A stretch of 64,000 bases of DNA from Pegea sp. RAD2-039 (Eukaryota; Chordata; Thaliacea; Salpida; Salpidae): assembly GCA_034620365.1 (NCBI GenBank), contig JAQGEQ010000380.1:1798001-1862000 (forward strand), read 5' to 3'. Positions 5,962 to 58,600 of the stretch are shown here, piece by piece (position 1 is the first letter of the stretch; each line of letters begins with the position of its first letter). Below the pieces are notes generated by a model that did not search any database, was not told the origin of the DNA, and saw only the letters and a list, made by a program, of their open reading frames with translations. Both the position numbers and the translations under genes were made by a program.

Positions 5962-7515
5962 AACTGAAATCAGATTATGAAAAAAAGTTTAAGGTAGTTT
6001 TTGGAAGTTGTAATCAATTGTACTAAATACTTTAGTAAAATAAATAATCAAAAATAATTCAAATGTTTCAAATTTGGTAGGTTCTTGTATCAAAATGATA
6101 TAAAAATAGATACACAAGCCATAAGAGCTTTGCTGATGCAATTCTAAAAACAGTTTTGTATCTAAATCAATCTAATATATTAAAATCTACTTATAAGGTA
6201 TATCTCATATTAAAACTTTGATTATAACTCAGATTAAAAAATTAGAAGCTACTTAGCAATAAATAACAAGCAACCACAATACTCAGAAAGTATAACCTTC
6301 TACTGAGTGCAGTTGGAAGTATACCAAACGGAAGGTTTGTCTACAAGATAATTTTTTTGATCTTATAAGTTAGCAGAGAAGTTTTTAAAGTCAAGGTATT
6401 AAATCAATTTAATAAAGATATGCGTTGATATTAAAATTAATTAATTATCATCACTTGATTATTTAATGATAGTAAATAAAAGTTTTTATCCCGCTACAAG
6501 TCAGCAAACATTCTGTTTAAAATTGTTAGGATAAAAATTCACAACTAAAAATTTCTTAAAAGGCTTTTTCTTGGTTTTGGCTTAGTGATAGATTTCAATT
6601 AAAAAAAGTTTCAATCAACAAACTTTTGTTGAAACACAAATTTTTATTTTGTAACAAATAATTCTTCACCAGATTATCAAGTCAGCATTAGGTTAAAGAA
6701 CAAACTATTGCAGTGACCGTTTGCTAAACAGCCTTATGAAATCGATAAATAATTCAGACTAAAAGAGAATTTAATTCATATAAAACTTTGAATCAAATTA
6801 ATTTGAAAACATTTATATCACTATAAAAAACAAACTCTACTTTGAGAGCAGTTTAAATTTCTTTCACAGAAGTTACGATTATCGACTGTAGCTCAGTTAA
6901 AAAAAAAACTATCTGTTGGTTTGTTCATCAGAAAAAATTTTTTGCTGGAACTTTTATTGACAAATTGTTGATAAATTACTTAAATAAAAAAACCTCTTGA
7001 TAAAAAAACTTGACAACAAATCGTAAATATTTTGTTGGTGTCGGAAACCAATAAAAAGAAGACAGATAAATACTAGAAGGTATTCGAGTAATTACATTAG
7101 TAAACGTAATAATTTCAACATAAATTTTACAAATACTTCAGTAGTTTCAACTTTACATCAGTCGTTAAAACTTTTATATCTTAATTCCAAACTTGTTGTT
7201 TATCTATTGAATTTTCTATAATAAATCCGTTGTAATATAAAAAGTTAGAATTCGCCTGAACTGATTTATTATTAATCCTGACAAATAAATAAACTAATTG
7301 ATTATTCTCTTAAAATGTGACTTCTTACAAAGTTAACCGAAGAATTGATTCAATTTGAAAAAAGATCTTGAATTGTTTTCTGAACACTATTGATAAACTT
7401 TGTAGCTATTATGTGAAGAGGTAGAAACTCTAATGATTGAAAGAACTAAACAAAAAATATTCTCTAAATTTTATTTCGATTTTATAGAAAACTTTGTTAT
7501 GAAATCAAATACAAG

Positions 7516-25055: not shown

Positions 25056-28000
25056 ATGCATTTAATGAAGTCTGCCATTACATTCTGGATCGTAATTTTT
25101 GAATTCTTGTCACTAAACTGGAATTATTTTCTTGCAGCTTCCTCCCCATGCTCCTACTTCCTTACTAGAAACTCTGGGACTTTTACATCACCCAGGTACC
25201 CCGAAAAACCTGAAACCAAACTCAACTTCTTGTCTTGTCAATGGGAGATTAAGGTAGAAGTTGGAAAAGAAATCCATATGCATTTTGGTGACTTAGACCT
25301 CAAAGGACCAAAAGACGATTGTGGGAAGGGAAATGTGGTTTTCTATGAAGGAATCGGAAAATCTCGTGAAAAAATGGGTTTGTTTAGCTTTTCTTTGTTT
25401 TATGTAAATTTAAAATACCTTCATCTGTCAAATTATCATCAACTAATCCTATTTAAACGGAAAAATTCATAAAAAATCAATCACTACTAATTTTAGCATA
25501 TGCGTTTTTGTCAGTAACAGATGGAAATCCTTTTCGTTACTCTTCAAGCAATTGAAATATTTAACAGTTTTCTCTTCCAAGCTGTCTTTAAATTATTAAT
25601 TCTAATCTTAGGTCATTGTAGCAGTCAACCAGGCATTAACACTATTTATTAAAGGCGAAGTTATCAGTTGTTACTTGTATACAGGCAAGAAACATGATAT
25701 TAAAAGTTAATATGAAGATATCTGTTTTTTTTAGCTCTGTTAATGGCCTTTAATTCCCTTTTCATGTTTTTACTTAAATGTTACACACTTATAGTTTGTG
25801 TCGTCAACACAAAATGATTGTCAGTTAGAGACCACTGCAAATAAATCTAAGCAAACACTTTTTAGCCCGAAATAAAATATAAATTGTTATTTACTTTTAC
25901 AACTTCATTTCAATAAGACTTAATGAAACCACTCGAGCATAGAAATCTCCTAAACTGATATGAAAAGTAAAAAATTAAATCTTAAGTCTTTTTTGACTGT
26001 ATTTTTTCAACAGGAAGCCAAAGTTGAATTTGATTGACCTTTCAGAATCTACTGTTAGTCAATCCTATTTCATTAGCCGGAATAGAAGTAATTTTTACTG
26101 AAATCACAACGAAATGAACTCTAAAGTTCTTTGAAATCTTTTTTTTATAAAAATTCAACGTTTTCACTAAAACAATTGCTGCTATCAGAGCAATAATTGT
26201 AAATTTCCAAACTTCTAATGCGAGGTATTTTCATTGAAAACTGACAAATAATTTTAAAGTATTTGTGTAATGTATTTAACTGGTGAAATTGTATTCAATT
26301 AAACCCGTCTTTTACCAAGTCTTCTGCAGTCGCATCAAACTTTTGTCATGGTTCTATTATAGACAGCTGTTGGTGAGAGATATAAAATGGATTTTAAAAT
26401 GGGCTTGTCGTCTCAAGCTTCACAAAGGTTCTCCGCCACTCAAATCCACTTTTAGCTAAATTTTCTCATACAAAATTGTTTTAAACTTATATAAGAACAG
26501 TCTCTTTTACTAGCGCAATGAATAATCTCTAATGATTAAATTATACTGGATAAAAAATCACATAATTCCTCAATCATTTTGCTTAATTCGTCAAATGAAA
26601 ACTTCAGTATATTTGGCAACTTGCCGAAGTATCAATTTTATTTCAAAGCTTTTTTTGTGAACTAAGCTTTGCCAAGAATAGAATCTTGCTGTTAATTTAT
26701 TGATTGGAACTTTATTTGAAGATTTTCAAAGTTTTTAAATTAGACGTTCCAACCAGGAAATTTTAAAGCGTTACAAACGATAGTCTCTCAGTATGTAAAA
26801 ATATTGCCTTCTAAATTGAAAATAGATCTTATGCATTTGGTTGAATAGTTTTAAGGTTGTTAATATTACCGCTTTATGACTACTGGGTATTTCTTAATCT
26901 GAATATTATCTAATATTTAAAAAATACTACATAACTTGGGTTAAATTGTAAACATGATTTATTTCAATGATTAAAACATTGTAAAATTACATAATTAAAA
27001 TAGTTCTGTAAAGATCAGTTACTTTAGAATGCTTCAACTATTACGAATAAAATTTGTTTAAAAACCCTTGATATTTGCTCTTTAAGTAATAAAAAAGCTT
27101 TGATTGAAATCTTTGTTTAAACAAAACAAGTTTTTGTTTTGAAAATTATCAAATTATGAATAGAAAAAAAGTTTACACAATAGCTTTTAAAACCACCCTT
27201 TCAATAAAACCAATTGTTTCAGTACTTTATTCTAATTGATAATTTAATTACTACTGATTAAATCCGATTATGGTTCGTATCTTGGTTTTACTTAAGGCCA
27301 CCCGGATTTTAAATTTAATATTTCATCTTCTAGTTGTACTTAAAATTACAAAAAAGGTTATTTGGCTGCATCGATTATTAACTTGAAATTGAACAGTACT
27401 AGACATATTATATTTTCACCTACACAACTATTCTTTTATGCTTCAGCTCAAATTTTAAGTAATAAAAATAGAAGAATGTTTCCAAGTAAGCTTAGAAGTT
27501 TAAGAATTGTAAATTGATCTTAATGCTTTTAATAAATTATTAGTAATTTTTTAATGCAGCAATTGCTTGATGTAGCTGTGTGAGTGTTTTAAAAACATGA
27601 TAAATTTATAGACTCGAAAAATACCCAATAATGTTGTTCAAATATAAAGAAATAATTTAAATCTATATCTAATATTAATTTTCTTAAATTGATTATAATC
27701 AGCTGTCGATATTTCATTTTTTATTATAATACTCAAGGTTGCTTCTTGAATTCAACCCGCTTATAGCTTAGATGATTCTATCTTCAATTCAGTACTTTGA
27801 TCTCACCGCCAGTTGAAGATACTTGCGATAGAAAAACCCCACCTTAATATCTCATCTTAACAAGAGTTTGCTTTGATCATTTGCTGTATCTTTTTAACAA
27901 TCACAGTACACAGTTACCGTAAACTTGATGAAAAGTATGCAGAATTAAAGTTGAGTATGTTTGAGAAACACCGGAAGAAAGCAGTCAGGATTTTGTCTAT

Positions 28001-31000
28001 GATCGTATATTACAGTTAGATTAAATTCACTTTTTAATTTCCTCAACCAATTTAAACTTTGCTGCATGTCAAATCTCTACTAATCATTAAAATTGAATGA
28101 ACTTCTTTCTTTGTTTTGCTACGTTGTAAAAAAGATGAATGAAAAAACACAGTTTCTTTAACTCTGTTGTAACCATCCAAAAAATTTAGTCTCGCGTATT
28201 AAAACTATTAATTAAAAAAAGACCAATACAAATAAAACTTTGATTATTTAGTCAATAAATAAAGAATTTAAATCAAATCAGTTTTCTGTTTGTGTATTTT
28301 TTAAACTTTTTCATTTAATGTATCCAGCGCGTGAATTAAAAAATTGAAGGATGCAAAATCTTAAAGATCTCTTTGCAGAACTTTTGATACAATCTTTGTA
28401 AAAGATGATTTATTTTTTGCTTTATTCTTCAGTTTATTATCTAAGTTTAAGCTTCAAGTTTTTTTAAGCAAATCGAATCTTTAAGTCAATCAATTAATTT
28501 TTATCAATTTAATCATTGACCTCAAATTGAAAAGTGGATAGATAAAAACCATATCATAATACGATTGATTTTGAAATTTCAAAATCAATTTTTAATCTAA
28601 TTTAATATTATATCAGTTTGATATTCAAACCTAAACTTCAGTTACAGAAAATTATAACAGCTGTCTTTGATGATTTGCAGTCAGTGAAACAGATTAATTC
28701 TACCGCTTCGTTTTCTTAACTCAAATTTCTCTTTTTCAATACATTGAATATGCACAGTAGCAGCTATGAGTCAGAAAACTTAACCAGTAAAAGAGCTTAT
28801 TACAAATTTAAGCCCCTGTTAAAACAGCTGACTTTTATTTGAAGTATCTAGGGCGGAGGTGGAATAGAAGGATGAGTTTAAAGTATAAGGAACATCAGCT
28901 GTTAGCTGCCACTCTTATTAGTAGTCTTTGAGGTTTCCTTTTTCGATATAAAATTAAAACTCCTTTTAGATTAGCAGTTAAAAATATTATTACCTCTTTA
29001 TAATTAGGCTAATTTTAAACCGACTTAGTCATATTTTTCAACTTTTTGATTATTTGTTTGATTTTGAGAAGTGATTGGCTGTTTCACATTTTACGGTTTT
29101 CGTCATCTTATGCTTGGTTTTAAGTTACAACAGTTTTAAAGATTATCTTTTGATTAAAGTATAAAAGATGAAAAGCATACCCTTCATAACTATCATAATA
29201 ATCATAATAAACATATCCTTCGTAAAAATTTAATAAATAAAATACTTTTCTTTTTACTTTAATTTTAAATATTTTCCGGTTTTTCGTTTTAATAAACAAA
29301 GCAAATCATTACTTGTTTAAATATAGTTTTCAATTTGTCAAAAATCCAAATTTAATTTTCTTTTAAACACATTTCTAATGTTATTTAGCTTACAAGAAGT
29401 ATTTTAGCAAATGAAGATCCCGAAAAGATTTTGTTAATAAGTTTATACTAAAAGCTCATTGTGCATATAATAGCATTACATTGCGGAAGCCGCAGCCTAA
29501 CTATTTTACAAGAACATTTCAATTATGTCTTCAATTCAAATTAATAATGAAAATATTTAACGAGAGCAACAAATCTATAAAAATGATTATTCTCATGAAG
29601 AATTTATTCTTTTGTGTTTAAATATTTTTGTTGAAAAAGTTTTTGAGAAATTTAATTTGAGCAGAAAACTTTTATTACAGCCGACCACCTACTTTGACTT
29701 TTAGGTGCAAGATAAAAAATAATTTCTATGGGCCTTGAATTAAGATTAGGCTTTTATATTCATTAATCAGTTTTAGAGGTAAGTAACTTAACAAAAAGTG
29801 TGTTGACTTAGAGTCCAAAGCTTATCAAAAAGTATTTTACAATTTAGTTTTTCGGTTGTAACTTAGAAAAGAATATTTCTTAATGATAAATCAGTAAGAC
29901 ATAGAAAATTTTAAACAAGATATAAAAGTCCGATAAATCATAAAAATGTTCGCCTAACTTCTTTATTCTAATTTGTCTTATAAAAGATTCAACCATATTT
30001 TCAATGTGCTGAAATAAACGCTGTCAAAGCTGTAAGCTTTTAAAATCAAGAAAAGGATAAATAATTTTGCTCTTATCAAAGTAATAAATCAAAACTAATC
30101 GTGTGTAAAGTATAAGTACCACGTTTAAACTATGATTTTCTGATTTCATTAAAACCCTAGTAGCTTAGAAAAAGATTTTTATAAACAAACAATCGTTCAT
30201 ATTTTTTTAACAAACATCAATTATTCTTAGCTTAGATTTAGCAAACAAATTTCAGTAAGATCTTCACAAACTTTGCAAGGAAAATTTGTAGCCTAATCTT
30301 GATGCTACGTTCTTATTGACTTATGAAGTAATCATTTTTGATAACAGGCTATCACTATTTCATTATTTAATGATTTGATTACCATTTTAATAAATAGAAT
30401 TCTATTTGTTTTGGTATTCTCATTTAACTTTTGTTGATTAAACAACTTGCTTTTAAACTCTTCAAAGAAAAAATATTTGCTTCTTCAAGTTAATTTTGTA
30501 GATATTTTTTGTAAACAAAAGATCTTAATGTCTCTTCTCTGGAATAACCCATTTCTATAATATCTAACAACTACAGAAAAACGTTTGTTGTACCTAAAAT
30601 TATGTTATTTGAATTTTTTTTTGTAAATTTTGATGCATCATTTTCATGTATTAGCGGATGATGACTGAACTAAAAGGCTTTTTGCTTCAATGCACTTTGT
30701 ATGGTTCAAAAACTAGAAAAAACATTGTTTTGAAAGGTTATGTTCGCTGACCAATTGGGCATAAGCTTTGCAAGTTACCAAAATTACAGCAGAGTAACTT
30801 TATATAACTCCCCGCTCAACGTATCATTAGATTAATTACATAAATATGTTGCAAGTTAAAACCTTTTCAGTTCATACATTTTAGTTTAATTCCTTTTTAT
30901 TATTGGTGATAAAAATGTAAGAAGTCTTTTGTTTGTTTCTAAAATTTTTTGTATAAAAATGTCTTTTGTAATTTGCTAAAAGCGTTTTTTTGTTATTATC

Positions 31001-34000
31001 AGTCATGATATCTCTAATGCAGTTTCATAGATAGATCTTATTCATTACTCAAACTTGATTTTGGAGTTTTTTATGGTTTTGATTATGCATACTCAAACTA
31101 AAAAGAAAGGTCATTAGATCGGGATGAATGAAAACAGAAAACAAAATTGTGAAAACTATCGTCACGCTTCCTGGTTGTGCTTGCTTTAGCTGATTTAATA
31201 GAAAAAATTAAGTTTGTGTTGAACTGGTTCAAAAAGTAGGATCTTTTAATTTTGCATTGATTTCAATGTTCAAACGATCATCATGAAAAATATAGCAATT
31301 TAAATTTATATCTTTTCTTAAACTGTATAAAAACAATTTAAACTTTGTTATAAAAAGAAACCTCATGAAAGAGAGCTGACATTATAGTTAAAAGCTTAAA
31401 TTCATCTTTTCGACCCCTTACTTTTTATAGTAGTTCGTGTCTTAGTAAAACGATTATTTAATAAGCCACAAAAATGAAAAGTTTTAGAAAGCAGTAAACA
31501 TTATTACTGATCAACATCATTGATAAGGTTTTTAGTTCTTTTTATCATTATTTTAAAAGCTTATCAGCAGTGAGATCTCAACTTACTCCTGTTTCAAATT
31601 TTATAAGCATTTTTGCATTATAGAGCCTTTGTTGTATCACATCTAGTTTCAACTCCTCTGCCACCAAGCTTAAATTGAATAATAATCTATGATCTTTAAA
31701 AAAACTATTCCTTAATTTACTGAAAACTTACAAACGCCTGCTTTGTTGTTTCGCTTGTTATTACCTTAATCAATAATGTTTTTACAATTGTTCGTTAAAA
31801 AAAGCAAATTCATAAATTTAAAGCACAAACAGTTCACAGTGTTTTTCTAGAAAGCAAAACACTGAGTTATGTTTAGGATAACCTAAAAAGGGCTACCTAC
31901 AAGCGTTCTGTTGTCTTCAAAAGAGACTACTTAAATATTTTCAAGGTTAAATCTTAGAGTCTTAAGAACAGTAAAACTTACTTTGCAATTTTAAACTCAT
32001 AAGTTATTTTGAAGTTTCTCTATACACTTTATTCAAATTACTTTTTGATATTTAAAAAATGCAGTTAAAAGCTTTCTGCCGGCAAATTTGTTTAAACTTT
32101 TTAATTTAACAAAGGCATAAAAGTTTTAACTTTGAAATGAATTTTTATCTGGTGACATTTTTTTCACATATATTTGTTATAATCACTTAGTTGTTCTCAA
32201 CATATTTACCAGTGTTTGAAAAATAAATATGTTTGTTTAAAATATTAGCTAATTTTTTACAAGGATTTTATCACTTAAATCAGTTAATCTCTATTTCGTG
32301 TCAGTCTGATTTATATTGACAGTTTAACTTTACAGTCCAATAGTTTTTCTCATTCTGGTTTCTACTGATTAATTGTAAACTATTCTCTCATACTAAAGAT
32401 AACACAAACAAAATGTTTTTCCCACGATATATTAAAGATAAATTGAAGTTTTCGCAAAATAATATTTGTGAGGTTTTATCTTCTTACAGAGATTATTTTT
32501 GATTTGATAGACTAGTTCATAAAAAAATAAAAATAAAGCGCTATATCTTCCATGATTTTTTCTAAGATCAAAATATAAACTCCAGAATTTTCTATGTTCT
32601 TTTCATGTACTCTACCAATCAATTAACTTCTTGTTTTTTGATGAAATTAGATTTAATTTGGAAGATATTTATTAGTTTTTCACAGAGCAAAGTATTTTTG
32701 TGTAGTATGAAAAATTAATTAAATAAATATTTTATAACACAAGAAATAAATCCTTAAATCCTACTTTGAATCACAAATTAAAAATAACTCTTTGATTCGT
32801 TTGACTAAAATGAATCTCAATTCAAGTTGAAAAAGTTTCTTGTCTACAACAGTCTTGAAATCAAAAAAGGATCTTTCAGATAAATGTCTTTTTGCTTTCA
32901 TATGTTTGATGTTGGTAATAAACTTAAGTTTTTATTTTATATAAAACGTGTCTATGAGCTCCATATTGATCTTCTGTCTGTCATGCTCTAATGATTTCTA
33001 CGGGACGGCTTACCTATCTTACTGAACAGCCACCCAAGTGAAACACTCAATCCTTTTATCCTGTTTTGATCCGATGATGTTTGCATCGCGGTAAAAAAAT
33101 AGAATAAGCCTTGAGAAGGTACAGGAGATAATTGATGGCATAAGAACCACTGTTGTCTAGTGAATGTACAAGGCTTGGGTAGTGTTTAGTGATTGAATAG
33201 CAAAAATTCGCCATTTCTTTAAGTGATTCTTTTATTTTAAGATTCGTAGTAAAATCTCAACTCGTAGTTTAGAAAGATTATTTTTAAATCTTTCAAATAA
33301 TTTTTCTGCTACTTTTAATAACTTCTCTATATTATCAGTTAAACTTTATTATTTACTAAATTTATATTTTTTTAGATTCTTACTGTCCAGGAGATTCGTA
33401 TAATGATGTCATAATAAAAAACGATTCAGCAACTGTCATATTTCACTGGCCTCGTGATTTCAAAGGCAAGGGCTTTCTGATATCTTACATCGCAATCACA
33501 CCTGGTGAAACTGTGCATGGTAAGTTAACAACTATCACGTGATAACCAAATATGTCGGTTTTCGAATTTTGAATTTTTGTAGGCTAATAAATAAGTCACA
33601 TTTGATATATTCACATAAATGTTGAAATTATATGAAAAAGTTTTTAAGATAATATCTTTTAGTGCACTCCTTGTATAAAATATATTTGATTGCAACATTA
33701 CATCAACTAATTAAAACACACCGAAATCTGGTTTATTTAAAAAATAGATTCTGTTAACAGTTTATCAGAAAAGCAAAACTTTTCAAATGCTTTTCATCAA
33801 TCTGTTTAAAATCGATGTTCTTTAAACAAAATGTCGAAAAAATAAATTTGAAATATTTTAAGCTACAAATTATTACTTAAATATGAAATTTGAACCTTAA
33901 GATTGACAAGTATCTCGTTGTGATATCAGTAAGCAATATTCAAACATGCTGCCGATTATTTCGCTTCATTTAATATAAATATGAAACTTAAGAAATATAA

Positions 34001-37000
34001 TCTAATAAAAAGTGGTTCTTTACCAATTTAAAAAAATTCTTAAGCCTTATGTTTTGATTTTTAATTATCTATCTTTGTTTTTTTAGCAAAAAGCTATTAT
34101 CAGTTTATTTATTTATTATTTACCTTGATTTATATTGACTCTAAAAACCTCAAAACGCTTATGTTGATATAAAATAAAGGATTAAAAAACAAAACAATTT
34201 TGTACTGAATAATATGCTGACCAATCTCTGTACAAAGATAAACCACTAACCACAATATTGGTTGTTACCATTTAAGCTAAACAAGAAACACAAGCTTAAC
34301 AAATAATTTTCCAAAACATCTAGACTTAATTTCGTAAAATAGCTCATTATCTAGAAAAAAAAGCAAATGAATTATTTTAAAGATGTTTTTTTAATATTTT
34401 AATGATGTTGTTAATTGACAATATTAAATTGACTGGTTATATACCTCTACTTATTCCTTGAAAAATGTAATTACAAAAATAATTCTTAGGTTATCTTCAG
34501 TCTAATGCTACGTGATCAATTCATTTTGTGTTTAGATCGACGAAAAGCCTTTCATCAAATTATTAGCAAATAGAATTGATGAGTGATTTATTCATAAACT
34601 TTTTTACTTTTATTCATCTATATCAAACCTTTATTTTAATGTTTGTTAGAGCTACGAAAATAGATAAAACCCTTTCTTAGTATTGACGTAAGTTATGATG
34701 CTGGTAAACACCTTATAGATTAATTTGGTGGTAGCTATTAGTCACCAAGTTTGTTAAAACCATTTTGTAACTTCCACTCGTATTGTAGTAAAGAATTTTC
34801 GAACTTTCCAAAATTTGTTTTGCAGCTTGACAATAAAGTCTAGTGTCTGAGTCTAGATTGCAGTAAATAAATTTGAATTAATAAGTAATAAATAGAAGTC
34901 ACAAACCTTATAACATTACTTTCTATTTATAAACTTCTAATCTAGCAGTACTTTATTAAAATATTAAGCAAACGAATTAGTTTTGTTTTCACAAAATTGT
35001 AAATAATTTCATCAAATTGTTTTTCAATTTATAGATTTGAGTTTGTAAATAAGACATCTAAGAAGAAAAAAACAGCAAATAAATGATAAACAGCAAATAA
35101 AGAATTCAAATACACAAGATTATTAGAACACAATACAAAAAACCTTAAATCTATGTGTAGTACTTTTATGTACCGCGCGAGAAATTGTTTTATATAATGT
35201 AGATAAATTTTAAGCAGTGCTTTCACAGTTTTGAAAATTCTAGTCTCATGAAACTTGTTTGGATTAAATAAAACTTTATCTTGGTGTTCCATTCTGACTG
35301 AAAAGATGACTTAATAAAAGTTATGCTTATGTTTAATATTCATTCGGCCAATAAAAGCTCAATGCTATCTTTTATCATTTAATGTTTACTTACTAAAGTA
35401 ATCTCATTATAATCTTCTCAATTGAATTATATCTAAATGTTGAAGTTTTATTACTACTTCAGACTTTAAAAATGATTAAAAACTTGTTTTGTAGACTTTG
35501 TTGCATGTTCAAAAACTGGAGAACAGAAGCCAAACGTTAACACGTACAGGTTAGTTGAGACCTTCTTACGTAAAGTTTGAAAAGTAATTTGATAATTGAT
35601 ATTCACCAACTCATGTTACACTGATGCTTTTTGAAAAATAGATTTAAAAAAATTGATAAAAAAAACACTTCTCCAAATCATCTGATGTTTCAAATCTCAT
35701 TGAAAAGCAAATATGAAAAATAAACAAAAGAACTTTGAGAAGATGAAAGACTTTTCAATGATTCAGAAATGAACTAGTCATATAATAGCACAAGAATTAC
35801 AAATTAATCGTTTGAAATTTGTCGATGAGTATTTCTATTTGTTTAGTGGTTTTATTTAGAAAAAATAAAAACATTTTTATTATCCTTATAATATCCGTAT
35901 AAGTCCTCTTTTAACCTGTATCTATTTCAATGAAATTTATTTCAAGGAAATGGAACCATGGGGCCCTTTAGACGTTCAGTTTTATTTAGGGGAATTTTAT
36001 GCTTAAATGCACATGAATCATTTTCATATATTTGCGATAACAATTCAATGCAGCTTACCTCTTATGTTTGACTTTTGAAAGACTTTTATCAAAAAAGACA
36101 GTCAGATAGATCAGTACATTATAAAAATGAAATAATATTAATCAAAATGTAGGCTTCATCTTACGTCCTACTTGTCGAATTTACACCAAGCTTTGACATA
36201 AAATATTGATTAGATCAAAATCAATAACCTTGTTTAGATAAAAGTTAATCTTTTCAATTTCGTTGCTGAATTTTTTCTCTACATCTTTTTTTTCTTAATA
36301 CCTTCAACTTTTCAACTTATAATCAAGCTCTTTAGAAGTTTCAGATTGCATAACTTGCTTTTTCATCTGAGATGACCACGTCAAACCTAACAGAGCTAAT
36401 CCAAAAAGCTCTGAATTATACTTTTAATGAACTTTTTGTTGTATTCACAAAATCAGTATTGAAAACATAGGCTAGAAGAAAATTCAAACCTTCACATTTT
36501 TTTTAGCTTTGTTGAAATGCAAACAAGAATTTTTTCAATAAATATTTTTCATTTATTAATCATCATAAGGTCGGAAAGGATGTTTTATGATGAGCTTGTT
36601 TACTATTCCAAGTTTTGACCATATCGTGGTATATATATTAATTTTGTTGAAAAATATCATAAAATCACAATATGCTGTAAATCAAATCAGCATCAAACCT
36701 TTATCTTGTAGATACATAATTAATTTTTCGAGGAAACCTCTTTTGTGTAGCTATAAATTCGTCAAATAGAAGATTTATTTTCAATAGAGAACAAAAATTA
36801 ACCACAAACTGTTTTTCCCAAACTATTTTTCACATATCAGAATAGGATTATTAACAGTTTTTACAATTCAGTTTTGACCTCATAATTTAAAAGTCTTTTT
36901 CTTCTTACTACAAATTATATTTTATAATGAAATATTTAATATATGACAAGCTCTAAAAAATACTTTGTTTAATTTTTGGAAAACAATATTTGTTTTTTAA

Positions 37001-40000
37001 AACCTTTTATATTTTTAGCTCTTAGAGATAATTATGAATTTAAATTTCATAGTTAACCTCCAATGACTTGAACTACTATTAAAGTATCACACAAGGTTCA
37101 GCTCACTCTAAATCCATTTACTTTGAGCTAAAGTTGACGATTTCTTTAATTAAGCTAATATTTAATTTAATGCAGCTCAGTCTAAACCTATCAACTTCTC
37201 ATTAAACTTTCAGTAGTTATAATAATTCCAACCGACAAACGAAGAAATCTAAATGACTACATTTGAGCTGGTTTTATTATTGATTATGACCATCAAGGTG
37301 TTTAAGTTTTTATTTTGATTCTGTGTGATTCCAAATATTTTCCCAACATAATCAAAGTAAGAACTGTAATTTTAATAAATTTGTTTTCTTTTTTCTTTAT
37401 TTTTCTCTCAGCTGACCTTTATGCAATATCGTCAATTTAAAATAGTAGTTTTCCTTAATCTTGCCACAGTATCTATTTTCGTTTTAAAAATCAAAATTTT
37501 ATTTTTTAAAGTTTAATTTTTTTATGCATTGACTTTTATTGTTTCCAATTGAGCTCTAATCATCTACTATTTCATTTAAGCTCTCTTACTGTCAACACCA
37601 TCAAAATGGTTTGATAAAGCTCAAGCGCTGCTACAGTAAAATTGATTTAAAACAATTATAAAATTCGTACAGGATGATAATTGGTCAAAAAAATTATAAA
37701 ACAGATTTTTGCTTCAACAATCTATCAACTTTTTGAGTAACAAACAACATGACAAACTTTCCATTATTATTTCACTTCAGCATCCACTTCAACTTTTGAC
37801 CTTGCACATACACTAAGCGCACTATCTGCTCCACTACCTTCTAATCGGTTGTAAACTGCTTTCGTCTTCGGATTCTTCCTTCTTTTTACGCCTTTCTGCC
37901 TCCAGCTTTCATCAGTGACTTCGACGAGTGATTTAAAAAAGATGTCAGTTTAACTGCGCAAATAGTCTTGAAGATTTCAAACAGCTTGAAACTGTGAAAA
38001 TTGTTGTATTCATTAAACTAGAATAAGAATTTAATTAAATTAATTACAAGACTAATAGCAGAAACCTAATTTCTAGTCATCAATTCACAAAGCATTTTCT
38101 TTAAGTAGTTATTCTGTTTTGAGAAACTTTTTGTGGAATAATCAGTAGAGCTACTCGTTCATTGTTATCAGCTCTGTATATGCCTTTACAGCGTCGTATG
38201 CGCGGGAGGTTGCGGTGGAATCGAAACACATGACGTATGGGGCGGTGGATGCAATGGAGATGCTTGCACTGACTCACAAACGCGAATTTATCGCGATGTA
38301 AGTTTCTGGAAAGCTTTTTATTTGTTCACTGCGCTACCTAGCGTTTGAAATATGGTATTTTTAAACTGCTAATATCTATGAACCAGCAGATGTTAAAAGT
38401 TTAAAAATTAAAGATAATTATAAAAATGGAAGTCTAGAAAAAGTATCAATTTATTTTATAAATTAATCTTTTTATTAATTTGAAACTTTGTGCCATTAAA
38501 AGACAAAATGTAAATTGATAAGTTGAAGCAATCTTTGAATTTCTATCTCATTATGAAACTTAATCTTTGATCTTACTGCTTGTGTCATAAGTAACTGAAA
38601 CTGAAACAAATAATTTTGATCTACTTAAGCTTTAATAACTTTAACGACTTTTTACTTAAATATTTTTTTTTAATTTAGTTTGTCATTATAAAATTTAGAT
38701 TTGAACTTATTTTATTAATTTGTTATAGAATTCATATCTGTGTAAAGCAGCAGTGCACGCCGGAGTAATATCAGATTTAGAAGGAGGAAGAGTTAGAGTT
38801 CGTTTAGTATCTGGATTTGAACTTTACTTTCGAGCCAAAGCAAATGGAATCATGACTCAAACGTAGTTTAGCTGATTTATATTTAAAGTCCTTAATCCAG
38901 TATCTTATCTTTTAGAGGTGCTCTTTCTAACTGGGCATTTAAATTCCCTGATTCAGAACGATGTAGAAAAAGTATTCCGATAGGAATGGATGCTTTTACT
39001 GCTTCTTCTTATTGGAATGACAGTATCAGTGATCTGTGAGTTTTTCACAATCATTACATACATCAGTTAGATAAAAATTCAATATTTGTAGGACTAAATG
39101 GCAACCACATCGAGCTTGGTTCGACAAACAATCGTTCAGTTGGTCACCTGACAACCCAACTGTAGAGCAATGGCTTCAAGTTAAGCTTCCTAATCTATTC
39201 AAAATTACTGGTAAGAAACAATTTGAGATAATTAAAGCATGAAAGAAGCAAGAGGCTTCAATAGGTGTTTATATTTCTACTTAATTAATTATTTCTTTAT
39301 TTTGTAGCAATTGAAACTAAAGGTAGTAAGCACCCTGTTCATTGGATTGAATATTACTGGGTGAAATACAGTTTAAATGGCAAACTTTGGCAAGATTACA
39401 TACCAAAAGGAAGTGATGAACCAAAAGTAATTACTTCTAATCGATATCTAATATCCAGAAATGCCTCAAAAGTGTAGAATCAGCAAAAAATAATTTTCAT
39501 TGATGTTTTTTGTCGATTTCAGCTGTTCAACGGGAATTTTGATAGCTTCACAGCTGTCATGAACAATTTTGTTTCTCCGGTTATCATCGCGAGGTACATT
39601 AGAATTTATCCGAAGCCGACTACTTCGAGAAAACTTCGATATGCTTTAAGCGTTCAGTTTAGGGGTTGTCGTGGTTAGTTGAATTTGAATAAATCTGTTA
39701 AGACAATCTAAACTTAATCAAAGTTTTTAAGCAAACTATTTTTGAATATTTTGAATATTTTTTTTAAATAATTGAAACAAATTCTTTTATTTTTTAGTTG
39801 GTAAGAATGAAATACCTTTATTACCAACTACCACTACAGATACTACTGTTCTGTTAACTCCATCGAAAAAATCTTATAAAAGTCAGTAAAAACAGACAAA
39901 TTCTCTGAAATTTATATTAAATAGTTGATTTTTAAGTTTAAGTATCGAAAATTATATTCGTAATAGTTTCAACTGATAAACTATTTCTAATAAGCAGTTT

Positions 40001-43000
40001 TCTTTTATTCCAGCCAAACCTAATCTGGACTTAAACGTACAAAATACAAGCTCTGATTCTAACATTGTTAAAAAGGTAACCACGATTTAAATAAATTCAT
40101 ACCATATAAAACTTCTTTATTTTTAAATATAATATTATGGGGGACAAAAAATTGCATTTTTTAGCTTTTATTTTAAAACTATTAGTTCCTAAAGCATTAT
40201 TAATAAGAATCTAGGAAATGAAATATTAAAAATCGTTAATTCTCAGGTTACTATTACACAAGACTCCAGTGACAACAACAGTATTTCAGGTAATTCTTAA
40301 ACTCATATTATTCAGCCGTACAAAATTGAAAACCTCTGATAGGTATTTTATGGTCAAAATAATGATATACATAACAGAATAATGTAAAAATTGATATGGC
40401 TCAATATTTTGTATATAAAAATTAAAATTTCGTTTATAATCAAATATTAAATTTATGTCCGAATCTAATTCATTTTTTACTTTTTAATGGTCAAAAAAAT
40501 TATAAAGAGTAAATAGTCTGTATAAAGTTTGTCGTAACAACAAAATAGTGTACTATAATCTTATTGAAAGTAATGCTTAAAGCCATTAATTTTTAATTTC
40601 TTTAATATTCCAATGTTATACCAAATAGTAGAAAATTTCAGTTAAAAAAGTTAACTTTAAATCAAAATTTTTATCAAAGTTTTACAAAAGCGATTTCTTA
40701 TATGTACCCAGAAAATATTTTAACTGAAAAACATCGTTTGGCAAAAAACCTTAATAAATCTTTTTTTTCTTTTAAATAATTAGTTTGATTTATTACCTAA
40801 AACTGATAATTTGATTATTTTTATGATTTCTTTCCACTTTAGGGATTTGGCTCATTTATACTCTAAAATTGTCAGAAAGATAATAAAAGCTTGTAAAACA
40901 CAACAAAAAGCTAGTAATTTTTATCAGCTTGGCATATAATAAAAAAAATTGAAGTAATCTTATTTGCATCAGCATCAAAGACCTATCAGTACCATATAAC
41001 TTTAGTAACTTAACGAATTTCATCATTTTTAATATTTACTTTCTGAATAGAAATGTGGTTTTAACTAACCTTTTATTTGCTGATAACAGGGACAAATGTG
41101 ATCGTTATCGTAATAACCTTCAGTGTGTTCATTTTTTTGCTGGCAATAACTGTACTGTTTCTTGTCCGCAACCAGTAAGTATTATTTAGTTGATATGTTT
41201 GTGAAACTAATTCAAAAGTTATAATAATAAATTAAATATTTAATAATTTAGATTTTGTTGATAAGCTTTAAAAAATGTTTCATTTCTTATTTACCAAAGT
41301 GTGTAGCATTTGTGCTTTATATAGAAATAAGAATGGAAGTCCAGCCAACTCAAGCTCACAGTCAAACTACATGTACTCAGCCAATCCTGGAATGCCAGGT
41401 AGAAAAAAAAAATTCAGTAAAACTAAACATTTAAACCAAAAAAAAACTCTTTCAGTTCGATTTATGCCACAATCTGATCATGGTTGCAACAAGTTATTGA
41501 CAACTAGCGGACCGCCAACTATGAGTAGTACGGCTTCAGGAAACAATGGTGCTAGAATCGAATATCAAAACAAACACTATCGCGACGCCAATATGATTCA
41601 AAACTCACGTGGAGTAGTATCTATGATGTACAACACACACCACCATGAATCATCACCAGCTACTTGTATAGCTGGCTCAATTTCAATGCGTCATTCTATC
41701 TCACAAAAGGTTAACAACTCTGAACAAAGTCAAATGTTAAGGCAGGGTTCTGATAGTTTTGAATCAGGTAAATTTAAACGATTTAAGTTTTCTCATTGAT
41801 TTTTTTTTTGACGTTAACGAGCTTAATTCAATCCACTTTCACTAGATGCAGTTTTCGATGATGAAGAGGATGATGATGATCATGAGTACCAAGTAATTCC
41901 TGATTATGACTTACCAACAACAGGACAAATCCAAATGACCACGTCATCTAAAGCATCAACCGGATCTAGTTTTGGTCATCCAAGCAGAACAGGAGAATGG
42001 CCGCAACATCAGCCCCAAATAATCCACACGAACGCAGGAGTTGGAGTTTGGAATCAAGAATCTAACTTCTCACCAACATTTTCCTTGGACCATTCCACAA
42101 ATGCGCTGCCACCACTACCACCTACTCCTCAAGCTTACAACCATCATATACAAGCTAATATGTCACGTGGTCAGCTTTGTAGCACCTTTCCACATAACAA
42201 CACAGTCGAAGTCTCTTCCCAAGTACCTATTCCCTCCGGACAAAAGCACAGTTTCGAATCTTTCACAGCTCCAAGACCTACAAATGCACATCAACAAAAA
42301 CGTCATAAACCAAACCGGCCTCCTCATGGCTTAGTCGTGACGTCATTAACAAAGCCTTTCCACCACCCGGCTACCAGATCACCTTCTTCTGCATCAACTG
42401 TTTTAATGGAGTCTTCCACATCTCCTCTTCCTCATGAAAGCTCACATCCATCAGTGACTGAAGAAAATATGGCTTACTACTCGGCAGTAGCCAATGAGAA
42501 GAGCGAGTCACAATTGAACTGTTTCTATGGAGGTGAACCGCAAGCCTTGTTACGTCATGGGTCCTACAATGTTACAATGTTCCTGTTAATCTTCCGATGC
42601 AAACATTTGGAGCAAATGAAGCACGGCCATCGTTTCATCACCAGAATTATCCACCTGAAGCTCAACTCAATCAAAGACAACCATCGCATCATTCATCACT
42701 TGGAAGGGAACCTCGGACAGGTAAATCTATCTTCACGCTAAATTTGACTTCTTATCAATTGAAGCTGCTTCTATTTCAGCTGACGTCACCGACTTAGCTG
42801 GGTACGGACCTTCGCGACCATTTAGATCAGAGTCACAGAATTATGCAAAACAGCGAAATGGTTATGATCATCTATCACGTGATCAGTTTCGAAACAATTT
42901 AAGAGTCACTGAAACTTCTTCAAGTATAGAAGCAAATGAAAGATGTATTCCATCAACACCACAAATTAACACTTATAATCAATTAGATTTAAACTCAAGG

Positions 43001-43006
43001 GTGTAG
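25056..43006 (+). CDS. DCBLD1/2-like receptor: CUB, LCCL, F5/8C discoidin, TM, long Tyr/Pro-rich tail; 17 exons
   Basis: Exons: 25056-25377, 33376-33519, 35495-35549, 38192-38297, 38729-38862, 38916-39035, 39092-39210, 39308-39426, 39523-39673, 39798-39881, 40014-40075, 40247-40289, 41090-41174, 41325-41398, 41456-41767, 41846-42720, 42780-43006. Phases agree. Signal peptide about 1-27; CUB 32-153 (GTFTSPRYPE, CQWEI); LCCL about 156-258 (CKAAVHAGVI); F5/8C 270-422 (WLQVKL, ARYIRIYP, final Cys422); Thr-rich stalk; TM 490-513; then a tail of about 490 residues, more than twice that of human DCBLD2. The tail has an Asp-rich run, PPLPPTP and YDLP (664-667). As given, an 8-bp tandem duplication (42565-42580) shifts the frame at residue 886, predicting 940 aa; without it the frame continues to TAG at 43004-43006 (1007 aa). 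Known: DCBLDs are transmembrane scaffolds whose phosphorylated YxxP motifs bind CrkL. The start is uncertain (see 15940-16036). Confidence 0.9.
28564..28589. repeat. Perfect 26-bp palindrome
   Basis: ATTGATTTTGAAA followed directly by its exact reverse complement TTTCAAAATCAAT, with no spacer. It could extrude as a cruciform or be the fused ends of a lost element; no function can be assigned. Confidence 0.75.
32950..33200. repeat. G+C-richer island, probable relic of an unrecognised interspersed repeat
   Basis: Composition stands out from the A/T-rich intron (GGGACGGCTTACC, GCATCGCGG, ACAAGGCTTGGG). No open frame, splice signals or terminal repeats were found, and it does not match the SINE-like copies. 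It sits just upstream of the second CUB exon, so a regulatory role is also conceivable. Confidence 0.3.
33520..35494 (+). other. DCBLD intron 2 (1975 bp), nothing recognised
   Basis: GT-AG, phase 1, between the CUB and LCCL exons. An 87-codon open frame on the other strand (35292-35029) has no domain or splice support and is treated as chance. Confidence 0.55.
35550..38191 (+). other. DCBLD intron 3 (2642 bp), nothing recognised
   Basis: GT-AG, phase 2, within the LCCL domain. A/T-rich; a slightly G+C-richer patch at about 37800-37930 shows no exon features. Confidence 0.55.
40290..41089 (+). other. DCBLD intron 12 (800 bp), nothing recognised
   Basis: GT-AG, phase 1, between the last stalk exon and the transmembrane exon. 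Very A/T-rich with no repeat recognised. Confidence 0.55.
41399..41455 (+). other. 57-nt in-frame, stop-free intron (exitron-like) in the DCBLD tail
   Basis: Begins GTAGAA, ends TTTCAG, phase 1, length divisible by three, with no stop in the coding frame. If retained it would insert 19 residues rich in lysine (KKKFSKTKHLNQKK) about 25 residues after the membrane segment. Splicing is the default reading because both sites match consensus. Confidence 0.65.
42565..42580 (+). repeat. 8-bp tandem duplication (TACAATGT x2) causing a frameshift in DCBLD exon 16
   Basis: TACAATGT at 42565-42572 is repeated at once at 42573-42580. Upstream frame and downstream coding frame differ by 2, exactly what 8 extra bases produce. 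With one copy the frame reads SYNVPVNLPMQTFG, and the exon then ends at phase 1, matching the last exon. With two copies YNVP becomes YNVT and translation ends six codons into the last exon. Confidence 0.9.
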
Positions 43007-52474: not shown

Positions 52475-52699
52475 TTAACACGAGCTCGAGCACTTTCTCA
52501 ATCAAGCTCTCTAAAGTCATTAACTAGAGCAACAAATAAAAAATTATAAAACAGTTATTTAGTTTTTTTCATTACAAACTTTAGGACTTGCTTGCAACTT
52601 TATATTTAGGTTCAGATTTTTTCTGTATCACTAAATTATACTCTACCAGTATCGGTAACCTCCAAGCAACTTGATTGATTGAATGGTGAACCTCTTATA

Positions 52700-55600
52700 C
52701 TATATATTAGCAAATTTATCCAAACTTGTGTTGATGCACCAATCTGGTTTATCAGTAAGATGCAAATCAATCATTGGACGAGGGGGAAGTACCGGAGTTG
52801 GTGTCGGAGATGCATCAGAAATCTTATTTTTTCTTATTACTTTAATTGCCATATTGGAAAGCGTTTTTCTTATTGACAAAGTAACTGTTGATTTGTCTGT
52901 GTTCATCGTAGATGTTGCTGAATCTGTAGAAGGTAGTGGTGTACGGAAACTATTTTTTGAGATATTGCTGGAGTTGATACTTCTTCTTCTGTATCTTAAC
53001 TCCACCGTTTTCACTTTACAGCAGCACATCCAACATCTTTCGAGTCCCATACCACAATAAGGAATATTTACAAGTAACCGTGCAAATGAGGTAGCCCATA
53101 ACTTGCGAGCCATCTTATTTCGAACACAAAATAAGTAGAACATCACAATACCCTTGAAAGAAGAAATTCTTAGGATTTTGTCTCAGATTTAGGAGAGATA
53201 TCTTATTTTTATTTCAATTACGTAATCTAAAATTTGTTTAAGCTGGATTCAACTTACTTGAATTGAAATAAGAAGAGAAACAATGTAAGAGATGGATTCA
53301 GTTAGAAGGGGAATATCTCCTAAAAGATCTAATGGTATTGCAATAATCCAAACTAACCCAAGTAAAAATGTGATTGTAAAAATGACACAAACTTGCTGCA
53401 GAGGTTTCATCGTCTTTTTATTTGACTGTATCTGAATAATTTTAAAAATTTCACCGCTTTGCATGAATAAGACTTTTTTATATTTGAAGAGATCTTAAGA
53501 AGAGAGTTAAAATCAAAATGTTCATAAAATTAAAGTTAAAGTCGCCAAATAATTGTTTATAAACATTCAGTCACCTTTCTTCTTCCCCATGTTATTGATC
53601 GAACCACGAGAAAACAGATTAGAGTATTAGCAGCAGCTATAAACCCTTGTATTGTAAAATATCCAAAATACAAAGCATCACCTTTTATCCAGCAAAAAGA
53701 GTTGCTTACATAATGTGACTCATATACTCCTTTAGCTATAAAATTCACAACAGTTTATTGAATAACTTACTAAAAAACTTCAAAATTGACAATCATAATT
53801 ACAAAGTTCAATTTCATATAAAGTTTTGAAATTGTACATAAGGATAGATATCAAAGATTTAATCTTTAAGTGGAGATTGATGCATTAAAATGTTCAACTT
53901 ACTATCAAACCGAGTCCAGTTTTTGATTAGTTGTCTTTGGTCAAAATATCCAACAGTTATTCCAAGAGTTGTTCCAACCACGATACCAGGTAAGAAGTAA
54001 GCGAACATTGTTGCATATGTCAAAAAGCTTTCATCAAGTGATTGATGTTTTCGGACTAAAAGTCTGTTTAAAATTTCAAAAGAATTGAAAAATCTGATTT
54101 ATAAATTCTGATAGAAACAAGAATAAGAAGAAGAACTGACTTGTACATGGAGACACCGTGAGCCAGCATCCATAACCACCCAGCCAGCATAAAGTAGTGT
54201 ATTGAGGCAGCAATAGCTATACAACGGTTTTTATTATCTGTATAATCTGCTCCTATCATCATTGCAAGAAATCCAAACAAAAGACAGATTGAAAGATGAA
54301 TGTGTAATGGACCAGGAGGACTTTGTCGTAACTCTCTAATAAATTTAGATAATTTTATTTATAAACAAAAAATAATTGTTTTTAAACACTTTTTAGTTAT
54401 TTTAAAGTTATTAGTTAGTGTAATAATTATTTTCTATATGCTTTAAAATATATTTTTATCAGAAGCAAAGCTTATAGCTATTTATTTAATTTTTAATTAA
54501 CTATTTATTAATTGATTATATGTTGTGGTCATCAAATTATTTTCAAATATAGCTGCCACCACGTTAACAACACAACAATTGATAATAAATGTTTTAATTT
54601 TTCTAATAAAATTTTATCATTAAAGAAAACAGAATGAATAGACAACTAAACAAAAGATTTTTTATAAACAAGATCTTAATATTATCATCGATTTAGATAA
54701 GCTATTAATAAGTTTTAAAGTTATTTTGTAAATAAACTTATAAATACAAAAATGGCAAAAATTTACCGGTAAGATAAGAATATGACCGCTGTTAGGAAGA
54801 AGCCGACACAAGATACTGATCCAATGATTGAGAAGATTCTGTTGAACAGAATAGTTGGCTTTATTGGTCGGTGATGTATTTGCTGAAATAAAAATAAGTG
54901 TGTCAATAAAAAAACCATCAAAATTTTAAAGTTTCCAGTCACTAGTTTAATTTAAAAAAAAGTAAGCCTGTGTTGTGTTTTAAACTCTAAAATAAGATTA
55001 AGAGAATTAAAATAGTTTAAAGTGTAAAGAACTGTTCGATTTTAATTAATTTTAACAATTTTAAGACTTTAATAAGCATCTGATAAAAAAGTATTGCAAT
55101 GTTTCATATACCACTAATAAAGCAAAGTTCGTCAGATGATTGCAATGGCAAACAGGTATGGTCATGTTTTGATCAAGACTACAGCCATCGTTAGACCAAG
55201 ACAGATTATCATAATTCCAGGAAACACATTGTAAAAAACGAATTTCCTAAAAGCACATTTATAGAAAATTATTTTGAAATCATTGTATAATTCTAAAATA
55301 TCTAAACAATGTAAAATATTTGAGATAAAAACAAGTTTGTTATCTTTGCATGTTCTAACATTCTAATTCTAGAAAACGATTTCTAATTTTTGTATAAATT
55401 TTATTTATAATTATTGAAAATACTTCTAAAGCGAATAATAAAGTTACTCTCAAGACTTTGTTATAGGACTTATTAAAACTTATATTTGTTGTGAAATGTG
55501 ATAACAGATGGTAGTTTTCAAGTGATCACTAATACTATATTTCACTTACTTTGTTTGAAAACTTTTGCTTTAAACTAAATGAATATGTAACAGGTGTTTT

Positions 55601-58600
55601 CAAGCCAGTAATTGGTATTTGATCAACTTGTGCAGAAATCACCTGTTTAAAATGTGATGTCAACCAGTTTTATTTTACTAGTTATGATTTTGACTGCTTA
55701 AAATCGATTTAAGTAAGTGAAAGTGAGACGAAATTCTCAATTTATTTCTAATTGTAAAATTATAAGTAAATTATAAAGATGAATTTATTTTTTGTTTCTG
55801 TTTACAACTTATATATCCTTATTTTTCAAATCTATAAGTTTTTTTAGCAGTAGTAATATATAATTTTACACTTACTCCAACAGCTTTATGAGAAGATGGG
55901 AACAATACATCTGTGTTGTAACTTATAAACGTCACTTTAGTTTGGTTATTTCTAGAAACCAATTCTGATCGTCTTAGAGCTTCAGCGGGTATCAAAATTT
56001 TAGTTTGGCCGTCGCTTCTGACAAAACTAATATCCTCAGTAGTATTTGAAACATAATGAACCTACAAATTGAACAAAAGTATCATTAAAATTGTAAACAG
56101 ATAAGTTTAAAAGGAATAGTGTAAGGATGATGCAAGAGTGTTGTAGATAAGGTTAGTAAAACTTAATGCGATGCTTAAAAACTATAAGCCAAAAAGAATA
56201 TTTACAGTTTTTTCTAAATCTTGTAGAAAATCAAACTCTTAAAAGTATGATTTTTATAGTTAACTATTTTCAAGAATAAACTTAACCACAAAAATTATAT
56301 ATTTTTATAAATTACTTCAGCAATTAAACTTTTTGTTGCAAATTTGGCAACAGTTGAATTTGCACTGGTATTAACTCTGCTTAGTAAATTTTCCAGTGTC
56401 TTCGTAACCTTTGTTGACTGTTTAGCCTGTACAAGTGTTTCTAAGCTTTCACTAGGCTTGGTGTGATAGGTTAGATTTCCATAATGTTCATATAAAGTCT
56501 GGGCTATCTCTAAAGCCAGCTGAAATGTTGATTCTGATACCCTAATATTCTGTGAGACAAATTAAATGTCAAAAAACCTTGGTAGCAATAAAGAGCCTTT
56601 TTTTAAAGTAGTTTATATCATTTCTTATCTCAAAAACAACATTTTGTTTAAAGCTATTTTAATAAGATTAATTAATAATTTTGTTTTTACTAAAACTAAC
56701 TTTATTCATATAAATATTCATATATTATTACTATGAAACCAATTAAATTACAACCCTACAATATGAATAAAAAAGCAAATTTTTTAAGTTAGTTAGCTGA
56801 ATATTAATACCAGGAACTACTTTTGTATTCATTTTTGTAAATTGTTTAATCATTGTACTTACCATGTCATGTGAAACAATACGTGATAATCTGGAAAATG
56901 AATTCAAATGCTTTTTGATATTGTTTTCAAATAAAGTCTCCGTTTCATTTTTAATAAGATTGAACAGAGTTTTAGTTTCGACTTCAAGTATAGCTGACGA
57001 ATTTGTTCCATTATTGCTAAACTAGTAAATAAAAACCAAAGTTGCTCTTATCAGTCAGATTGCGTTTAATGATATTTGTTTGATTAGCCTAATAATGTAT
57101 TTATAAAGTGATAATAACTTTGATTTCTCTTAAAATCTTCCATGAAACACAAAAAAACTCAGGTAAAATCTTTTTAGCCAATAAAAGTAATCCTTAGTAA
57201 CTTGTTTACAGACATATCTTGTGCTTTGTGGTGAAACATGCTTAGAAAACGAGCAACTATGCGTAGCAAAGCACCTACTTATATAGAGTAGTTTGTTTTT
57301 TCTCAAAAAAAAAATTAATCACTTGATGCATATGTAGAGAATGATGTTCTTCTTTGTGATTTGTATGGTTTTGATGAGTATGACTTTCTGTAAATTAGAA
57401 AATAAGCATTTTCAAATACAAATATGCAAAATATTTCATTCATATAAACAAAAAAGACTTTGAAAAAGTTGTTTTAGCAAATCTTTTGTCTTGTCTCTTA
57501 TTTAAGCAAATGACAAATTTAGTAAATAGTTTCTTTCAATGTTCAAATAAATTGGATATTTTCAGTTCTTTAATTCAAAACTTTTGAACCAGTTGTTTTG
57601 AAAGTTATCTAGCAGCCTACTAGTTCAAATTTGTTTAACAAACACCTGATATAATAGGTTGCTGAAACAAATTGCTCAATTATCACATTATTATAATATT
57701 TGTTTTGAAAATCATTAAATATAATGATTAATTAGTTTTTTTTATGAATTGAATTAATCTCACCATTTCGATATCGTTTTTCGCATATAATTGGAAACCC
57801 GTCTTCACAGTCATCATGAAGCCAGGATAATGTACAGTCATCAGAACACTGATAAGATAAAACTACACAATTTTCCATCTCATCATTCGTGGGATATCCA
57901 TAATCCCAAGGCTGATAAACAGGACTTTTTTTGGATGCAAGAGATACCCAGCCATCGTGAGGATCTCTGATATATTCTTTGAATTCTCTTCTCACAGCTT
58001 GCCAGTACATAACTGGTTCATGGTTCCAAGAATCAAATCCTACTCCCTGTTGACGATGGTGTTCATCTGACATACTAGAATTTGTAGGCTTAAATCTTTT
58101 CATTAACTCCATGAACTCAGCTGCTTCTTCTTGACTAGTGAGTGTAAAAAGACCGTCAAATTTTAATGACTGACATTTCTTATTTCCTTCGTCAAACGTG
58201 TATTTGTCGTTTCGATTGAAAAAGCCAATTTGTTTTTTGTTTGTAGAAAGTCGATGAACTATAAATTATAATAAGAAGCTTTATTGATGCAAGTCTTAAA
58301 AATTAGTTTACTAATTTATAAGTAAAGTCTGATAAATAATATTAAACTTATAATGAAATTATAAGTTTTGCAAACTAGCCAACAACTTCATAAAATTTTT
58401 ATGTGTCGTAATTAAAAGACGCTTAAAGATTATTGCTACTTCAGATGATCTTTCAGGATTCTTATTCCCTTGACTGTAAATAGCTTTCCAAAGTGAACAG
58501 TTTTCATGTGTCTCTTTAAAGTTATTAATCTTAAGAATTTTATCAAAAAATGTGAGAATTAGTTTTCGAAGTATAAAAATATGAAAAAGTTATTGTGTGA

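Follow-up and report, generated by a model that had tools for sequence, protein, structure and literature searches.

The window, that is, the whole 64,000-nucleotide stretch of Pegea sp. RAD2-039 DNA analysed here (C6:1798001-1862000 in the assembly; GC 27.5%), carries on its forward strand a gene with a putative ATG start codon at 25056, read from the sequence, and ectodomain exons whose boundaries were placed by eye within 25056-39675. Joined by eye, these exons encode three Pfam domains in succession. A CUB domain (PF00431; E 1.9e-17, 64.0 bits, cut-off 21.4) comes from two exon pieces at about 25140-25375 and 33376-33520. It is followed by an LCCL domain, also from two pieces, at about 38193-38298 and 38729-38863 (PF03815; E 4.3e-14, 52.9 bits, cut-off 22.6, profile positions 23-87 of 96), then by an F5/8 type C (discoidin) domain from pieces at about 38916-39675 (PF00754, F5_F8_type_C; E 2.9e-17, 63.4 bits, cut-off 28.2). 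An exon-by-exon search of the genome lists the LCCL domain of this window and gives no F5/8 match inside it, presumably because the latter domain is spread across several exons. A hydrophobic stretch at about 41092-41174 (start approximate), TNVIVIVITFSVFIFLLAITVLFLVRN, picked out by eye in the translation and followed by a GTAAGT donor, is a probable transmembrane segment, with the tail exons next to it. CUB, LCCL and F5/8 type C domains in the order of DCBLD receptors, together with a hydrophobic segment and a long cytoplasmic tail, make a DCBLD-type label reasonable by architecture. The DCBLD identity put forward in the original prediction thus holds as a domain order, with all three Pfam matches above their cut-offs.

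The best PDB matches of the gene are the factor VIII light chain (E 3.2e-27), neuropilin-2 (1.2e-22) and, for CUB, cubilin (1.2e-13); a DCBLD-named chain is absent from the best 60 of 70 matches. Neuropilins, coagulation factors V and VIII and cubilin each share F5/8 type C or CUB domains with the gene. Neuropilins and clotting factors are not known to contain an LCCL domain. Among the literature matches listed, no title or opening of an abstract concerned invertebrate DCBLD.

Further LCCL matches occur in the assembly, two of them on contig C71. Matches at L002, L004, L005, L006 and L010 were translated in three forward frames, and that at L027 on the reverse strand. L002 (G000:C15:648335-651505) and L027 (G000:C83:690001-700000, minus strand) show adjoining F5/8 type C-, LCCL- and many C-type-lectin-like exons, with kringle- and fibronectin-II-like pieces at L002 as well; both are perhaps large mosaic genes. 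The LCCL and F5/8 names come from family searches and the others were given by eye; the F5/8 match nearest to LCCL on C15 lies below cut-off. By eye, we rejected both loci as DCBLD-like, as mosaics with many C-type-lectin-like exons. Separately, G000:C18:222724-230395 (L007-L009, L026) holds tandem F5/8 type C genes or exons with a period of about 2,436 bases and near-equal scores. A search for COX1 gave no match.

The cytoplasmic tail continues in exons whose boundaries were again set by eye. Tail exon 1 (41307-41767) lies within an open frame at 41272-41799 and is delimited by GT/AG sites; tail exon 2 (41846-42720), located from the open frame at 41827-42741 and from codon scores, holds the duplication described below. 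The last intron (42721-42779, GTAAAT...TTTCAG, GC 0.32) leads to the last coding exon at 42780-43006, which ends on a TAG at 43004-43006. The introns between the tail exons measure 78 and 59 nt and both preserve the native frame. The four tail pieces have a GC content of 0.37-0.45 and show no Pfam match at E 0.1.

At 42565-42580, read directly on the forward strand, two identical copies of TACAATGT stand head to tail; Tandem Repeats Finder extends the period-8 match to 42581 once the next base is counted. The doubling originally reported at this position is therefore borne out by both readings. The 16-mer made of the two copies occurs once in the animal's own assembly (105.7 Mb in 387 contigs), where a control pattern, the same letters read backwards, occurs twice. 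A target-site duplication or footprint of a hAT-type transposon was considered and rejected. Such 8-bp duplications have the consensus nTnnnnAn and flank an element; in TACAATGT, positions 2 and 7 are A and G, in the rotated unit ACAATGTT they are C and T, and no sequence lies between the two copies.

Two reading frames meet at the repeat. The frame upstream (codon starts equal to 1 modulo 3) runs from 41845 through 240 codons with no stop. Continued through both copies, it reads ...HGSYNVTMFLL..., crosses the 42720/42780 junction and ends at TAG 42795-42797, just inside the final exon that starts at 42780. Entered from the second copy, the other frame gives YNVPVNLP..., passes that junction too and reaches TAG 43004-43006 after 124 codons without a stop, 121 of them past YNV; its end reads ...INTYNQLDLNSRV. 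One copy thus gives YNVP and a continuous frame into the last exon, and two give YNVT: when doubled, the first copy still codes for the tyrosine, and the proline alone is lost from the motif. By translation, 121 native residues after YNV are lost and 54 out-of-frame residues gained beyond it. These translations agree with what was originally claimed for the site, namely the two alternative readings, the early last-exon stop, the loss of 121 residues and a gain given there as about 50. Since the downstream frame is free of stops over 124 codons, the duplication seems to be young, or else an artefact.

To score the frames, we used a codon-usage model built from 23 long open frames (6,998 codons) found in 200 kb of this genome. 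For the stretch beyond the repeat it gives -1.3 bits in the downstream frame and -17.4 bits in the shifted frame, each over 49 codons, and -4.5 bits in the third frame, which has 3 stops. In the last exon, the downstream frame scores -0.8 bits with no stop, the other two -11.6 and -17.7 bits with 5 and 8 stops. The native frame scores -0.5 in tail exon 1 and +11.3 over the 240 codons of exon 2 before the repeat. Its absolute support is modest: the scores are weak, being near zero in tail exon 1, the post-repeat stretch and the last exon. Stops are found at 66 of 1014 off-frame codons in these exons, which puts the probability of 123 open codons arising by chance at about 0.0003.

A change-point scan over 42460-42714 has its best point at 42546-42548. 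Points within 6 bits of it define an interval, 42534-42584 on the forward strand, over which the preferred frame changes from 1 to 0; on the left, this interval is bounded by frame-0 stop codons. Change points inside the repeat score 0.8 to 4.9 bits under the best (-0.8 at 42576-42578, -4 to -5 at 42565-42572). In 60-base windows just upstream of the repeat, from 42460-42519 to 42520-42579, at least one other frame outscores the one in use. With moderate confidence, codon usage places the frame switch around the repeat without pinpointing it to the repeat. The frameshift proposed at or near this site is supported to that extent, as the repeat lies inside the switch interval.

An 8-base tandem repeat is by itself not beyond chance in this window, which contains 5 exact tandem pairs of period 8, not counting lower periods, against 3.05 expected (s.d. 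1.6) from 100 first-order Markov sequences. What makes this one notable is its position inside the 51-base codon-usage switch interval; from the period-8 counts, the chance of such a coincidence is about 0.2-0.4%. We also scanned 264 kb, made up of the window and 20 further stretches, some of which were picked near domain matches. Among 1,384 tandem pairs on both strands, with units of 4-30 bases that are not a multiple of three, two were found that restore an open frame, namely this repeat and one in L030; a wrong-frame control gave one match, in L025. The L030 pair, at 6827 on the minus strand, is a 4-base unit, TCACTCAC, lying between two high-scoring open frames. It was not accepted as a tandem-duplication frameshift, as no gene is recognisable there, nor was the control match, which resembles an intron in a lectin-like gene. 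This repeat is thus the only tandem-duplication frameshift accepted in the 264 kb. The pattern is rare in that sample, and the statistic of so small a scan cannot alone separate the repeat from noise or introns. Within the assembly, a 261-base DNA query found only the locus itself, with neither a second haplotype nor a second copy among the best candidates scored; likewise, a 232-residue tail query found no similar tail elsewhere among the best candidates scored.

Most likely, these observations reflect either a recent mutation of an ordinary kind or a mistake in the assembly, rather than a new biological mechanism. We favour, at a probability of roughly 0.55, a recent 8-bp tandem duplication truly present in the animal's DNA, which puts a DCBLD-type gene out of frame towards the end of the part encoding the cytoplasmic tail. 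An error of assembly or consensus, with one copy and an intact gene in the animal, is a distinctly less probable reading that nonetheless deserves serious consideration. It would fit a downstream frame that is fully open and copies that are identical, as if no real time had elapsed, and a single copy of the locus was found, so that the assembly provides no internal cross-check. However, such an error would have to double exactly 8 bases within exon-like sequence that is not repetitive, unlike a homopolymer slip, and similar breaks are uncommon in the 264 kb scan. Exact 8-base duplications are not the commonest type of error in long reads. We weighed a real frameshift against an assembly error on general knowledge of error types.

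The remaining alternatives are less probable still. Splicing, normal or alternative, would keep the mRNA frame unbroken if an intron of length 3n+2 spanned the repeat. We find 23 GT...AG pairs of fitting length, for instance 42454-42644 and 42571-42644 (with a CACCAG acceptor), and at least one by-eye donor of this gene is also weak (GTTTGT). We nevertheless consider this unlikely: all 23 candidates have an exon-like GC of 0.397-0.449, against 0.16-0.32 in ten introns of the gene (a subset with ends placed by eye, several 1-2 bases off, the two longest represented by their first 501 bases). Moreover, no candidate donor scores above 4 of 7 where four donors of the gene score 6 or 7, and the candidate introns would excise sequence in which the native frame is open. 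It is highly improbable that the protein has long and truly ended at the shifted stop, with the downstream open frame arising by chance. The shifted frame is likewise open to the end of the exon, but over 49 codons the native frame beats it by 16 bits, and the alternative frame crosses a good splice junction and runs for 124 codons without a stop. Programmed ribosomal frameshifting, finally, is barely credible: by arithmetic a -1 shift would yield the right frame and restore the tail, yet no X XXY YYZ heptamer occurs in any frame at 42536-42715.

If the duplication is both real and recent, as we favour, it could have originated by slippage or by end-joining fill-in with 1 base of microhomology. 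It resembles known short tandem-duplication frameshifts, being a small, identical, head-to-tail copy, not a multiple of three in length, within a coding exon, and as far as the sequence goes it differs from them in nothing. The mutant transcript would exchange the last 121 residues for 54 unrelated ones, with its stop early in the final exon. A stop there generally escapes exon-junction-dependent decay, and this transcript would probably do so. The predicted product is a membrane-anchored receptor with a shortened tail, and the native C-terminal end may well matter to its function. That end is NSRV, which would also be lost in the shifted frame; it fits the class I PDZ-ligand pattern, one that is common by chance. 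A further proposal, that a segregating allele switches a DCBLD-type receptor between a long, NSRV-ending tail and a short one, as a standing signalling polymorphism, is very unlikely. With the stop in the last exon, the two forms would each be stable. As a function, the tail-switching raised in the original prediction is not supported, the codon usage of the out-of-frame stretch being poor (-17.4 bits over 49 codons).

The interrupted YNVP also drew attention to YxxP motifs, suggested earlier to give the site importance through CrkL. According to PMC6029619, vertebrate DCBLD2 and DCBLD1 have seven and eight intracellular YxxP motifs, respectively, conserved among vertebrates and required for CRKL binding. 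The tail here differs: in about 512 residues with 17 tyrosines, it has two (YDLP and YNVP). Over 10,000 shuffles of the tail, the mean is 1.45 motifs, and 44% of the shuffles have at least two. The multiple motifs of vertebrate DCBLD receptors are therefore not seen in this tail, and the importance attached to the motif is not upheld, as YxxP is no commoner than in shuffled tails. The landing of the duplication on a YxxP is a coincidence until shown otherwise, and the vertebrate YxxP/CRKL picture should not be transferred to this animal without evidence.

If real, the duplication likely means a loss or change of tail function in a receptor with no further tail of its kind found in this assembly, and it provides a ready genotyping marker. 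Should it prove an error, the gene model needs correction. Either way, the current view of DCBLD receptors and of mutation is unchanged.

Two other features of the window lie downstream of this gene. At 52683-53182, long open frames overlap on both strands, encoding 125 aa on the plus and 160 aa on the minus strand; the latter has no Pfam match. At 57735-58265, on the minus strand, an open frame is C-type-lectin-like, with a Pfam Lectin_C score of 18.2 bits, under the cut-off of 22.6.
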